Shown: one piece after another, positions 7,679 through 46,806 of the stretch
How positions within the stretch are numbered: position 1 is the first letter of the stretch
How the letters are laid out: each line of letters begins with the position of its first letter
DNA from: Clostridia bacterium
GTDB taxonomy: Bacteria > Bacillota > Clostridia > Oscillospirales > Acutalibacteraceae
Direction of reading: 5' to 3'
Length of the DNA: 64,000 bases
NCBI GenBank assembly: GCA_017513195.1
Contig: JAFXGM010000041.1
Location: 1 to 64,000 of the forward strand
Notes under the pieces: generated by a model
What the model saw: the letters and a program-made list of their open reading frames with translations, nothing else
The model's database searches: none
What the model was told of the DNA's origin: nothing
Position numbers and translations under genes: made by a program

Positions 7679-9625
7679 ATGAACTATAAAGTAGATTACA
7701 AGGTTAAAAATATTATGGACGTCCCCTCTCTTGGCAACTGCTTTTTAGAGGGTGAAATCGGCGCGCGTGTTGACCGTTTTATTCTTGAACGAGTAAGCGG
7801 TAAATTTGCTTTGGAAGAGATTTTGCGTGAAGCCGAGAATTTTTTCAAAACACAGTATGACGATATTTATACCTTTGGTTATTGGAGAAGCGAATTTTGG
7901 GGCAAGTTAATGCTTAGCGCCGTAAGATGCAGCCAATACAAAAATGATAACGTTTTAAAGGAAGAACTGCGTAAATCTTGCTATACAATGCTGTCTTATC
8001 AAAGAGAAGACGGTTACCTTTCTACATACAGAAATTCCGATAATCTCTACCCCGTTGACGTGGTAAAATCAGCCCTTTATTCCGGCTGGGAAGCAAACTA
8101 CTGCTGGAACGTTTGGGGTATGAAATACACCCTTTGGGCACTTATCGAAGCCTATGAATATTTAGATGACCAAAAAATTCTTACCGGCGCTATCAAGCTT
8201 TCTGATTGGATTGTTGCAAAATTTGCGTTAGACGGCACTCGCGTTAAAGACAGCGGCGTTATGGATGGTATGCCATCAAGCTCTATCTTAAAGCCGATGC
8301 TTGTGCTTTACAGAATTACGGGTGACGAAAAATACCTTAACTTTGGTAAAGACATTGTAAAAGAGTGGTCGCGTAAAGATAACGAAAGACCTAACCTTAT
8401 TACAAACGCGTTATCGGGCGAGGCAGTGGCCGATTGGTACGGCCTTTCAAGCAAAAAGTTAAACGAAGGTCACGACCTTGGTTCTGACTGGGTGCCAAAG
8501 GCTTATGAAATGACAAGTTGCTTTGACGGTATAATCGAAATGTATCGCGTTACAGGCGACGAGGTTTTGCTTGATGCCGCAAAAGCATTTTATGAAATGC
8601 TTAAAAAATACGAAAGCAACATTTTAGGCTCGGTTGGTTATTGCGAACGCTACCAACACGGCGCAAGCTATGCCGATAGCGCTACCGAAATTTGTGACGT
8701 ACTTCACTGGATGCGCCTTTGTTACGAGCTGTTCCGTCTTACAGGTGAAGCAAAATATATGCAGTCATTTGAAAAGGCATTTGTAAACGCATATATGGCA
8801 GGCGTTTATGAAGACGGCAAAATGAGTGCCTTCTTTGTACGTAGTGCAGGCCGCCATTACAGAGCGCAACCTCAGTGTGAAAGTATGTATCAGCACTGCT
8901 GTCTTAACAATGTTGGTCGCGGTCTTACAAACGCTGCCGAAAGTTGTGTTACCAAGAGTGATACAGGCTACTTTGTAAATATGTTTACACAAAGCTATGT
9001 GCGCTTTGGGGACACCGATATACGTGTTGGTGCCGGATACTTTGACAGCGGTTGGGTTGGCATTGCAGTAAGAAACCCCGAAAAAGGCAAAAAACTTTAT
9101 CTTAGAATTCCTGAATGGAGCAAAAACACCAAAATTCGTGTAGGTCTTGGTGACGATGTTGTAGTACCCGTTTGCGGTGATTACTACGAAGTTGAGCTTA
9201 ACGAAGATACCACCATTATGAAAATTCGTTTTGATATGACAACCGAGGTTATAAACTGCGAATGGGAGCCGATTCCTGATGGCGATTATCATTCTCACCG
9301 TTGGGGCGATGGCGTATTTGGTCTTTGCAATAAAGAGATGATGCTTAAATGCTCTAAGGTTGTTTTGCGTCGCGGCCCTGTGATTCTTGCCCGCAGTAAA
9401 AAGTTTGGTGCTAAAGAGGAAGATATGTTCTCTCTCGACACACTTTACGGCAAAAAAATCGATAGCATTATAGCACGCCCAATTATAAATAATATTGGCG
9501 TTTTGGTGACACTTAGAGTTCACATTACGGTTGACGGCGAAGTAAAGGAATACATTTTGTGCGACTTTGCGTCAGCAGCAAACATTGACACCAACGATCC
9601 AAAATTCTTCTCGATTTATCTTTAA
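7679..9625 (+). CDS. Cytoplasmic GH127-type beta-L-arabinofuranosidase family protein
   Basis: This 648-residue protein belongs to the glycoside hydrolase 127 (former DUF1680) family, (alpha/alpha)6-barrel enzymes that remove beta-L-arabinofuranose. Visible support: repeated Trp/Tyr-rich barrel helices in the first 350 residues; ATEICD (about 338-343), matching the E-x-C pair that binds the catalytic zinc; and QHCCLNN (about 398-404), matching the paired cysteines that include the nucleophile. A C-terminal beta-sandwich follows. There is no signal peptide, so it acts on imported oligosaccharides or glycosides. No sugar transporter is adjacent; it stands alone, divergent from the deo operon. 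The exact substrate cannot be told, since related families (GH142, GH146) share the architecture. Confidence 0.82.
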   Translation: MNYKVDYKVKNIMDVPSLGNCFLEGEIGARVDRFILERVSGKFALEEILREAENFFKTQYDDIYTFGYWRSEFWGKLMLSAVRCSQYKNDNVLKEELRKSCYTMLSYQREDGYLSTYRNSDNLYPVDVVKSALYSGWEANYCWNVWGMKYTLWALIEAYEYLDDQKILTGAIKLSDWIVAKFALDGTRVKDSGVMDGMPSSSILKPMLVLYRITGDEKYLNFGKDIVKEWSRKDNERPNLITNALSGEAVADWYGLSSKKLNEGHDLGSDWVPKAYEMTSCFDGIIEMYRVTGDEVLLDAAKAFYEMLKKYESNILGSVGYCERYQHGASYADSATEICDVLHWMRLCYELFRLTGEAKYMQSFEKAFVNAYMAGVYEDGKMSAFFVRSAGRHYRAQPQCESMYQHCCLNNVGRGLTNAAESCVTKSDTGYFVNMFTQSYVRFGDTDIRVGAGYFDSGWVGIAVRNPEKGKKLYLRIPEWSKNTKIRVGLGDDVVVPVCGDYYEVELNEDTTIMKIRFDMTTEVINCEWEPIPDGDYHSHRWGDGVFGLCNKEMMLKCSKVVLRRGPVILARSKKFGAKEEDMFSLDTLYGKKIDSIIARPIINNIGVLVTLRVHITVDGEVKEYILCDFASAANIDTNDPKFFSIYL

Positions 9626-9648
9626 TTAAATAAAAAGAACAGTGCATA

Positions 9649-9685
9649 GGCGTTGTACCCGTAAGGATACAACGCCAGTTTTATT
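9649..9685 (+). terminator. Hairpin after the GH127-like gene, probable terminator
   Basis: A 9-bp stem GGCGTTGTA/TACAACGCC (9649-9657, 9668-9676) with a 10-base loop, followed by AGTTTTATT. It is the first hairpin inside the left terminal repeat and would serve as the terminator of the upstream gene. Confidence 0.6.
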
Positions 9686-9772
9686 CGCCTTGCGGCGAGT
9701 TGTATTGCTTCGCAGTTATATTCGGCTCTCGCCGAGTGTTATTCGCTTTGCGAGTTTTATAGGCGAATAAAA
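9679..9772. repeat. Cluster of four small hairpins enclosed by a 12-bp stem
   Basis: Within a stretch free of genes (9626-10045), four short stems follow each other: TCGCC/GGCGA (9685-9698), TTGC/GCAG (about 9706-9715), TCGGC/GCCGA (9722-9735) and TCGC/GCGA (9743-9753). Each is preceded by a similar TATT or TTATT. The flanks TTTTATTCGCCT (9679-9690) and AGGCGAATAAAA (9761-9772) are perfect complements, so the cluster could close into one multibranched fold that competes with the first small hairpin. Confidence 0.8.
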
Positions 9773-9851
9773 TATCACTAAAACCATTAGGTTTTAATAT
9801 CACTTTTGATTTATCAAAAATATCACTGTGAGACTTGTCTCACAATAGCAC
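9771..9851. repeat. AATATCAC repeats alternating with three unrelated hairpins
   Basis: The octamer AATATCAC occurs at 9771, 9796 and 9819, with AATAGCAC at 9844 and another AATATCAC at 10002. Between consecutive copies are hairpins of different sequence but equal design: TAAAACC/GGTTTTA (9779-9796), TTTTGAT/ATCAAAA (9804-9819) and TGTGAGAC/GTCTCACA (9827-9844). Constant linkers with changing stems mean structure is conserved rather than sequence. Confidence 0.82.
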
Positions 9852-9871
9852 TATTAAAAAGTATTTTATTT

Positions 9872-9985
9872 TGAGACAGTAAAAACGGATGTGCAAAAAT
9901 TCTACACATCCGTTTAATATTTGTCTCATACCGTAGCAAGCAGGGAAAATGTACGGCACATTTTCCACTTGTTAGGAGAACCTAA
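9872..9985. repeat. Three larger hairpins in the element
   Basis: First, a two-part stem: TGAGACA/TGTCTCA (9872-9878, 9922-9928) outside an 11-bp stem AAACGGATGTG/CACATCCGTTT (9883-9893, 9905-9915). Second, GGAAAATGT/ACATTTTCC (9944-9952, 9958-9966) with outer CAAG/CTTG. Third, TTAGG/CCTAA (9972-9985). The order resembles leader structures of an RNA rather than a coding region, and no open frame of note runs through it. Confidence 0.75.
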
Positions 9986-10045
9986 TACCCTTTTCTAAAC
10001 AAATATCACCTATTCGATAAATTGGAATTTATCAAACTGATTACA

Positions 10046-10282
10046 TCAGTATGTGTATGTGTCGAACCCGTCAACCCAATATGTGTTATCTAAAAGGCGA
10101 GGCTTAAATAAAGTGAACACTTTCGTTATTCTAAAACCGTCAACAGTATCCTTGAAGCCGTTTTTGTCCTTTAGTGTTGCGACTGCTTTCTCTGCATTTT
10201 CTAAGGAACTGTATATTCCAATATCCTTACGCTCAATGTGGTCTATAAGTTTGTATTTGTGAGATACTTTCCAACAAATCAT
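10046..10282 (-). CDS. Small DUF7336-like protein carried by the hairpin element
   Basis: A 78-residue acidic/aromatic protein without signal or membrane segment. The pattern IGIYSSLENAEKAV, then GFKDTVDGFRI and a final YWVDGFDTYTY matches, from memory, the DUF7336 family of small proteins with unknown role; no search was possible. I start at the ATG at 10282, which has AAAGGTGG eight bases upstream; a TTG two codons earlier is less likely. It has its own extended -10 promoter and is the only gene within the terminal inverted repeats, facing left like the addAB operon but separated from it by that operon's terminator. A regulatory, immunity or structural role cannot be told apart. Confidence 0.72.
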   Translation of the reverse strand: MICWKVSHKYKLIDHIERKDIGIYSSLENAEKAVATLKDKNGFKDTVDGFRITKVFTLFKPRLLDNTYWVDGFDTYTY

Positions 10283-10327
10283 TTTCAACCCACCTTTTCA
10301 TCAAATTCTTATTTATCGGTTAGTTGT

Positions 10328-10336
10328 ATTATAGCA
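10328..10336 (-). promoter_or_regulatory. Extended -10 promoter of the small DUF7336-like gene
   Basis: Minus strand TGCTATAAT (10336-10328), an extended -10 with no good -35, 46 bases before the ATG. It lies in the loop of an inverted repeat GTTAG...CTAAC (about 10319-10350), which could affect expression. Confidence 0.65.
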
Positions 10337-10362
10337 CAACTTGACTAACAAAGAAAGAGAAT

Positions 10363-10403
10363 ATTAAAAACACCCACAGATTTAAAAACTATGGGTGTTT
10401 CGT
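10363..10403 (-). terminator. Terminator of the addB-addA-YbaK operon, inside the element
   Basis: On the minus strand a 9-bp stem AAACACCCA/TGGGTGTTT, extendable by three inner pairs, is followed by TTTTTAAT. It lies within the right part of the hairpin element, so the element supplies the terminator for the neighbouring operon. Confidence 0.8.
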
Positions 10404-10453
10404 AATTTGTTTTACTGTCCTTTAGAGTACGACTCTTATGCACTGTTCTTTTT

Positions 10454-11011
10454 TTAATCATACCACGGAAGTTCGACTATGGTTTTTGTATGAGATACGG
10501 CATCAATAATTTTATCAAATATATCGGTGGTTTTAATTTTCATACTTGTTGTATTTACGCAAGGATGACAGCCGATATATTCGTCCGATAAAATATCTTT
10601 ATCTACAAGCAGTCGCACGGCGTTTTCGCTGTCGTTCATAAGACCTAATACGCTTACCGAACCCGGTGTTATGTTAAGATATTTAAGCATTGCATCACTG
10701 TCTGCAAACGACAGTCTTGCCGAATTGATTTGCGCTGTGAGGTCCTTTGTTTTAAAGGGCTTGTCTGCCGGCATCATAAGAAGATAAAAATCGGTTTTTT
10801 GTCGGTTGCATAAAAACAAGTTTTTACAAATTTTACACTCTAAAGCCTTATCTATTGCAACACATGCCTCCATAGTATCGGCAGGCATATCGCGGTGATC
10901 GACGTGGTAATATTCGACACCCAAAGAGTCTAAAAATTCATAGCACTCTATCTCTTTAGCCTCGCGACCAAGCAGTGACTCAGGTCTTCCTTTTTTAAGT
11001 AATAAATCCAT
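10454..11011 (-). CDS. YbaK/ProX-type aminoacyl-tRNA deacylase
   Basis: A free-standing 185-residue trans-editing protein of the YbaK/ProX family, which hydrolyses mischarged Ala- or Cys-tRNA(Pro). The fold is visible as EYYHVDHRDMP (about 33-43), KNLFLCNRQKTDFYLLMMPADK with the conserved Lys at its start (about 63), then LLVDKDIL and GCHPCVNTTSMKI near the C-terminus, the usual ProX/PrdX ending. No proS is near. It starts 15 bases after addA and is probably co-transcribed. Its stop codon abuts the right terminal repeat of the hairpin element. Confidence 0.88.
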   Translation of the reverse strand: MDLLLKKGRPESLLGREAKEIECYEFLDSLGVEYYHVDHRDMPADTMEACVAIDKALECKICKNLFLCNRQKTDFYLLMMPADKPFKTKDLTAQINSARLSFADSDAMLKYLNITPGSVSVLGLMNDSENAVRLLVDKDILSDEYIGCHPCVNTTSMKIKTTDIFDKIIDAVSHTKTIVELPWYD

Positions 11012-46729: not shown

Positions 46730-46806
46730 CCGCTTGTGGCGCAGCTGGATAACGCAGCAGATTCCGATTCTGAAGAACGGGGGTTCGAATCCCTTCAAGC
46801 GGGCCA
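46730..46806 (+). tRNA. tRNA-Arg(CCG), CCA encoded
   Basis: A full cloverleaf fits: acceptor CCGCTTG/CAAGCGG (7 pairs), D arm GCGC/ACGC with a C-A closing mismatch, anticodon arm with loop TTCCGAT (anticodon CCG at 46764-46766), 5-base variable loop, T arm GGGGG/CCCTT with TTCGAAT loop and two G-T pairs, discriminator G and genomic CCA. Position 27-43 is G-A. It would read the CGG codon. Confidence 0.93.

Follow-up and report, generated by a model that had tools for sequence, protein, structure and literature searches.

A structured element at positions 9649-10436 of the window, i.e., the whole 64-kb stretch (64,000 nt) of Clostridia bacterium DNA analysed here, proved to be one copy of a large dispersed family built on an array of seven mini-hairpins. 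Judged from its sequence, the element is read as occupying the loop of a bidirectional intrinsic terminator of the host, with the flanking 17-bp inverted repeats as the arms of that terminator. We put at roughly two in three the probability that it represents a non-autonomous, cargo-carrying family member residing in a hairpin loop, lacking a gene for the IVP protein (23S-intervening-sequence protein; S23, PF05635, a four-helix bundle) and mobilised in trans by an IVP system. Furthermore, the family may be related to the puzzling insertions that rRNA genes of bacteria have long been known to contain.

Host terminator and insertion sites

The first-pass annotation of this region had described two exact 17-bp inverted repeats, at 9632-9648 and 10437-10453, as the terminal repeats of an element. 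Their presence was confirmed, with an exact match between both, and the 64-kb window contains no second inverted repeat that is exact over 17 bp or more at a spacing of 60-1000. Nevertheless, a role as transposon ends is rejected, because the outer stem sequence changes from locus to locus and because a sister copy has an empty site (see below); both arms would instead belong to the host. In form, the repeats (AAAAAGAACAGTGCATA and its complement; no strand assigned) correspond to the A-tract and stem, on the left, and the stem and T-tract, on the right, of an intrinsic terminator on which two genes converge, one GH127-like (end at 9625) and the other encoding a protein with an aminoacyl-tRNA-editing domain (end at 10454). 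Joined without the element, the flanks give a hairpin with a 15-bp stem and then the T-tract, which has the form of a bidirectional intrinsic terminator. A second, weaker inverted repeat lies directly inside the exact repeats, the arms then totalling 36 nt at 83%. The window element thus has inverted ends that close a host hairpin, with the empty site coming from the sister copy. Rfam gave one over-threshold match in the window, a tRNA at 46730, so the element does not lie within 23S rRNA.

The sister copy is located on contig C7 of the same genome, between a HIT-like gene and azlD. At this site the close relative G010 carries AAAAAGCACCGAT-TAA-ATCGGTGCTTTTT (i.e., AAAAAGCACCGATTAAATCGGTGCTTTTT), which forms a plain terminator hairpin, perfectly paired around a 3-nt loop; it is in that very loop that the genome under study has the element. 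The site is empty in G086 as well, shows no array at loci L198 and L201 (rechecked), and is filled in reverse orientation in G018, where the contig stops inside the element. From this comparison, a target-site duplication would measure about 2 bp at most, no clean duplication being established. The check for empty sites proposed at first pass was therefore answered exactly for the sister copy (G010), whereas for the window copy itself no empty site was found among the 13 loci at which the adjacent editing-domain gene is present. GH127 stands beside that gene in three of the 13, namely L153 (the window genome), L159 (G079, filled) and L158 (G086), the last with about 950 nt between the two genes and no model match; the remaining loci of the 13 gave no GH127 match.

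Family members occupy intrinsic terminator stems or directly follow tRNA, 5S rRNA or RNase P RNA genes. An outer stem of A-tract and T-tract scoring at least 11 was present in 28/90 arrays, the window copy and its G079 counterpart (L052) both among them, versus 2/450 mispaired controls, and one scoring at least 13 in 21/90 arrays versus none of the controls (90 of 98 arrays were counted, 8 with short flanks being left out). In the 28 stem-positive arrays the A-tract begins 42 to 49 nt ahead of the array. The 62/90 arrays without an outer stem at the chosen threshold are accounted for in part by the 14/98 arrays situated downstream of a tRNA gene in the same orientation. At the rpsR terminator, a short plain hairpin was seen by eye in 29/30 loci and one locus (G077) is filled; in G082, outside these 30, an array adjoins rpsR by coordinates. 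Judged by eye, a tRNA T-arm-like repeated sequence (GGGGTTCGAACACATAGG) comes after the array at L134, L055, L114, L117 and L152, several of these arrays lying behind tRNA genes.

The hairpin array and its distribution

The array core (9677-9852, + strand) is about 176 nt long and comprises four mini-hairpins with AGTKATATT-type linkers followed by three with AATATCACT-type linkers, the latter being the reversed form of the former, while the stems vary through paired substitutions. It matches covariance model R1 with 195.1 bits (model positions 1-176). Around hairpins 2-4 a long-range stem joins a 5' arm at 9679-9690 and a 3' arm at 9761-9772 (both +), which form a perfect 12-nt inverted repeat; in this helix (helix 1) 99.1% of cells are paired and two pairs show double changes. 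The left element end is formed by hairpin A (GGCGTTGTACCCGTAAGGATACAACGCC; 9649-9676, +), found identical and in the same place in L142, L143, L052, L147, L062 and L108, and its left arm and loop also belong to an imperfect terminal inverted repeat. Such inner imperfect repeats are visible in several subfamilies; an automatic search scored them low and misplaced the window's own.

The claims of at least ten hairpins and a repeated linker held good. Between 9632 and 10453 there are 14 non-overlapping perfect hairpins (stem at least 5, loop 3-8) versus a mean of 5.45 and a maximum of 10 in 60 shuffles, and between 9649 and 9852 there are 6 versus a shuffle mean of 0.68 and a maximum of 3. The linker AATATCACT occurs four times in the window, three of them within the array, a count of 4 being reached in 1/100 shuffles. 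Folding of 9626-10456 as RNA gave z = -10, with 0/20 shuffles equally good. In a covariation alignment of ten copies from the window genome (185 columns), 95.6% of cells in the local hairpins pair and 27 pairs have both partners changed; adding the long-range stem raises these values to 96.2% and 28, versus 31-47% pairing in slid controls. Compensatory stem changes, which had been proposed as a check, are thus present at 27-28 pairs.

The search for other copies, likewise proposed, was productive: the window genome contains 13 arrays (25 covariance-model matches, 12 of which are opposite-strand matches on the same arrays), and the model is positive in 44/61 genomes of the genus and, within the order, in 57/147 genomes and 39/85 genera, the window genome included throughout. 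The two-linker pattern gave 40 matches in the window genome, and the same pattern read backwards gave 0. Among the matches listed, the named records in which a core pattern occurs are MAGs; their titles read Clostridia, Oscillospiraceae, Clostridiales or Ruminococcus, and ruminant gut is the source of many. Our array collection consists of 98 of 137 model matches, after 39 opposite-strand duplicates had been dropped. In L120 an insertion sequence, IS3-like by eye, is inserted 3' of the array within the hairpin element.

Constant end modules and exchangeable cargo

To the right of the array, a constant left module of the subfamily with further hairpins (9853-10024, +) is 93-95% identical in L145, L068, L142 and L143 at other loci, and a constant right module (10289-10436, +), with the imperfect right terminal repeat at its end (about 10418-10436), shows 93% identity to L145 and 91% to L068; the scoring is permissive, giving 73-83% for stretches that are unrelated. 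The outer stems of L145 and L068 differ from that of the window. Between the modules lies a cargo slot (10025-10288, - strand, borders approximate), whose content is unrelated in the two other copies: a TetR regulator and a cation-efflux transporter in L145, and a small membrane-like protein of no Pfam family in L068. The copy that G079 carries at the orthologous site (L052), in the same terminator and beside a GH127 gene 94% identical, has no cargo and a shorter right part.

In the window, the slot holds a 78-codon gene (10046-10282, -; counted from ATG), and the -10 box TATAAT of its promoter (10328-10333, -) is situated within the constant right module, which is kept in L145 and L068; gene and promoter had been correctly recognised at first pass. 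The label DUF7336-like stands only as a likeness, since the profile search with the product gave E=4.8e-4 and 20.4 bits, below the Pfam cut-off of 25 bits. Of 60 genomes, only the window genome possesses this gene. A search for a phage origin yielded no phage match and no viral-contig relative, and as a phage or plasmid gene the candidate was rejected, with one weak plasmid match, from Psychrobacter (36%, E=4e-4). The first-pass proposal that the gene is part of the system, i.e., a partner protein, is rejected on account of its presence in 1/60 genomes and its absence from the orthologous-site copy. Because like modules hold other genes, L052 is empty of cargo and the gene occurs in a single genome, it is best read, on these sequence comparisons, as exchangeable cargo.

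As had been noted, the element contains no transposase-sized frame, because the only ORFs of at least 60 aa within it are the cargo ORF (80 aa when read from TTG) and a 69-aa ORF that overlaps it on the other strand. In L143 and L148, tyrosine-recombinase-like frames, by eye as of integrative elements, were seen near the cargo position after the left module; both contigs end soon after.

Comparison with known kinds of elements

The first-pass view of a non-autonomous, gene-carrying element of mobile type, neither CRISPR nor simple MITE, is supported. In contrast to CRISPR, with constant repeats and unrelated spacers, the array has short linkers and palindromic variable stems. With MITEs and REP-REPIN sequences the family shares many short, palindromic, non-autonomous copies alongside few that have a candidate helper gene; it differs from them in its cargo gene, its seven variable hairpins with near-constant linkers and its locus-specific outer stem, and the window copy, with a 78-codon gene and a promoter, departs from the non-coding nature of MITEs. 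Like integron cassettes, it works with different cargo between constant hairpin-rich ends and a promoter in the constant part, although the hairpin elements are scattered singly.

The nearest known kind in its working is the intervening sequence of rRNA genes. The 23S rRNA intervening sequence has been described with heptameric repeats ahead of the S23 ORF and a 28-bp terminal inverted repeat, and a relative of the S23 protein as a homopentameric ring; in that source, the origin and function of such intervening sequences and of the S23/IVP protein are called unclear, and mobile-element ideas of 1990 and 1993 are cited (PMC4990558). Common to both are the insertion in a host hairpin, the terminal inverted repeats and the IVP family beside heptamer arrays. 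However, by location and content the window element is not an rRNA intervening sequence: it lies in a terminator, encodes no S23/IVP protein and a foreign DUF7336-like gene instead, and carries a seven-hairpin array, and its family counts several to many copies per genome.

Association of the arrays with IVP genes

The IVP family is a candidate partner protein of the hairpin arrays. The window genome contains one IVP gene (PF05635; E=7e-28 against PDB 2rld), which comes after an array of the same linker type on contig C47 (gene at 108401-108763), a copy lying behind the RNase P RNA. In the genus, PF05635 was detected in 57/70 genomes versus 0/14 control genomes. Repeated 6-mers cover a median of 10% of the flanks of 70 IVP genes versus 0% of 62 control flanks (p=1.8e-16; the array-filled loci L166, L196 and L197 and loci below 2800 bases were excluded from the controls, while L153 and L159, also filled, were kept); the coverage exceeds 10% at 35/70 IVP loci versus 2/62 control flanks, and is 5% or less at 7/70 IVP loci. 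Upstream of the IVP genes one heptamer often occurs several times on each strand, the linker heptamers including ATGATGT, GTGATGT, GTGAAAT, GCTAAAT, ATGAAAT, GTGATAT and others.

On the IVP tree, the heptamer changes 21 times (minimum 19) for 65 labelled genes and 20 states, versus 44-54 times in 300 shuffles; the heptamer classes were named by hand, and 5/70 loci (L383, L384, L397, L399, L406) are unlabelled. As an association, therefore, arrays of like plan, each with its own heptamer, adjoin IVP genes, and the heptamer type tracks the IVP tree; co-inheritance of neighbouring DNA can be a source of this concordance. At L345, L347, L348, L359 and L361, IVP genes with AATTACG-type repeats occupy, by eye, apparently one conserved intergenic place in several species.

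In a survey of the phylum, PF05635 occurred in 35/199 genomes, and repeated-6-mer coverage was above 5% in 20 of the 28 loci read (of 30, with L456 and L459 left out), the survey having no control of its own. Rfam was applied to six of the 28 loci, in which an rRNA or RNase P gene had been suspected by eye, and placed four IVP loci within 23S rRNA and two, of one genus, within RNase P RNA. In the latter two, L448 and L450 (1229-2003, -), which come from two genomes, an IVP gene with short inverted repeats interrupts the gene for RNase P RNA, and in L448, the one aligned, the insert falls in an apical loop.

We thus favour, as stated, movement of the window element in trans by an IVP system of matching linker type, e.g., that of C47 in the same genome. 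The IVP protein, of which a relative is reported to be a pentameric ring, would bind to the linker heptamers of DNA that is single-stranded and has its mini-hairpins extruded; the element would be inserted where host DNA forms a hairpin, in the loop, and catalysis might be supplied by host enzymes or an unseen recombinase. Since the element would enter the loop, the arms of the host terminator stay complementary, and insertion may therefore do little harm, which suggests a route for gene gain at little damage, inside terminators. Several observations speak against this reading, among them the 62/90 arrays without an outer stem, the failure to establish a clean target-site duplication, the IVP loci with little repeat coverage and the hairpins that have no G..A loop on either strand. 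In addition, array number is not simply tied to IVP genes of the same type: G018, G082 and G008 each give over 30 array matches when both strands are counted, yet their best IVPs are only 58-65% identical, and the IVPs examined among them have other linkers. Finally, by GC skew no orientation bias was seen (24/42 for class I and 5/9 for class II), and so no sign of single-strand transposition from this side.

The strongest competing explanation, which we nonetheless regard as unlikely, is that a known family of DNA transposons (with, e.g., a Y1/REP-associated, IS110 or tyrosine-recombinase transposase) gave rise to the elements as MITE-like derivatives, the IVP gene being mere cargo. The imperfect terminal inverted repeats, the different cargo between like ends and the tyrosine-recombinase-like frames noted by eye near the cargo position in L143 and L148 agree with such an origin. 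However, no transposase frame is common to the copies with inserts that were read, L120 having its own IS-like insert, while IVP recurs beside short-repeat arrays with widely different heptamers, elsewhere in the phylum too, and the heptamer type follows the IVP phylogeny.

Returning to the IVP-based reading, we would tentatively, and at somewhat less than even odds, extend it to the whole: IVP proteins and inverted heptamer/mini-hairpin arrays might constitute one mobile class without a known transposase, inserting wherever DNA that forms a hairpin offers an apical loop (in terminators, in 23S rRNA helices and in RNase P RNA), changing its linker code with the protein, spawning IVP-less copies and capturing foreign genes with a built-in promoter; Gut-1 RNA and the intervening sequences of rRNA genes would then be two manifestations of one class. 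Because the relatives described here are intergenic and countable, with an empty site and a recurrent hairpin target, mobility and IVP function become directly testable. By title and abstract, no IVP-linked hairpin arrays or terminator-loop elements were found in the open-access literature, in a search that was not exhaustive.

DNA hairpins, RNA hairpins and Gut-1

Whether the hairpins act as DNA or as RNA bears on the next explanation, less probable again: that the array is a structured RNA (Gut-1) at transcript ends, behind tRNA, 5S, RNase P and convergent genes, where it protects or terminates transcripts, its dispersal being incidental. Gut-1 was indeed listed in 2010 as a structured noncoding RNA, 'Human gut only', with no function assigned (PMC2864571), and RF01706 is named nowhere beyond that report in the open-access literature searched. 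The strong covariation of the stems and the position of arrays at gene ends are likewise in keeping with an RNA, as are the mispairs of the + strand, where G.T outnumbers A.C by 15 to 7. On the other hand, mispairs are rare (30 versus 2635 Watson-Crick pairs in 88/98 arrays, 10 without a junction motif being excluded), a figure that is underestimated because only hairpins with at most one mispair were counted, and one array has demonstrably been inserted into a pre-existing terminator.

The loops also argue against this alternative, since the favoured ones lie on opposite strands in the two halves of the array. In the same 88/98 arrays (10 without a junction motif excluded), G..A loops in half 1 make up 115/155 triloops and 57/83 tetraloops on the - strand and 0 and 1 on the + strand, whereas in half 2 they make up 48/112 triloops and 59/109 tetraloops on the + strand and 1 and 0 on the - strand. 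The favoured G..A loops have a C-G closing pair, and GNA triloops as well as GATA, GTTA and GTCA loops are also present. The strand rule recurs in 32 arrays with other linkers (50:10 versus 9:37, p=5e-11), for which the half boundary was a fixed fraction chosen by the analyst and in which 113/219 hairpins have no G..A loop on either strand. The motifs d(cGNAg) and d(cGNNAg) form highly stable DNA mini-hairpins. The pattern of loops and mispairs therefore appears to favour single-stranded or extruded DNA, short of proof, with GNRA-type RNA loops as a partial alternative for the loop preference.

Spread of the arrays by replication errors, whereby hairpins would template their own repair or duplication at fork-stalling palindromes such as terminators with no dedicated protein, accords with near-perfect stems that change on both sides and with insertion sites that are hairpins, but is very improbable, because a similar unit length (model positions 1-176) in many genera and end modules 91-95% identical around foreign cargo at unrelated loci indicate the copying of a defined unit.

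As to novelty, the first-pass suggestion of an undescribed system survives in part. Hairpins 1-3 of the array align with the whole Gut-1 model (RF01706); the window array scores 40.8 bits (E=3.1e-6, at 9676-9747), below the gathering threshold of 50 bits, whereas the sister copies L024 and L043 pass it with 56.8 and 52.2 bits. The array is therefore not wholly undescribed, because a part of it matches a motif listed in Rfam; still, Gut-1 spans under half of the array, and the window linkers, GTKATATT, set it apart. Conversely, the Gut-1 RNA motif gains a genomic context. Three Gut-1 matches were also obtained at an IVP locus with GTGAAAT linkers (L365), where an IVP gene and a methyltransferase gene (by eye) stand together; the same pairing, with a different heptamer and the methyltransferase assigned by Pfam, is seen in L097.
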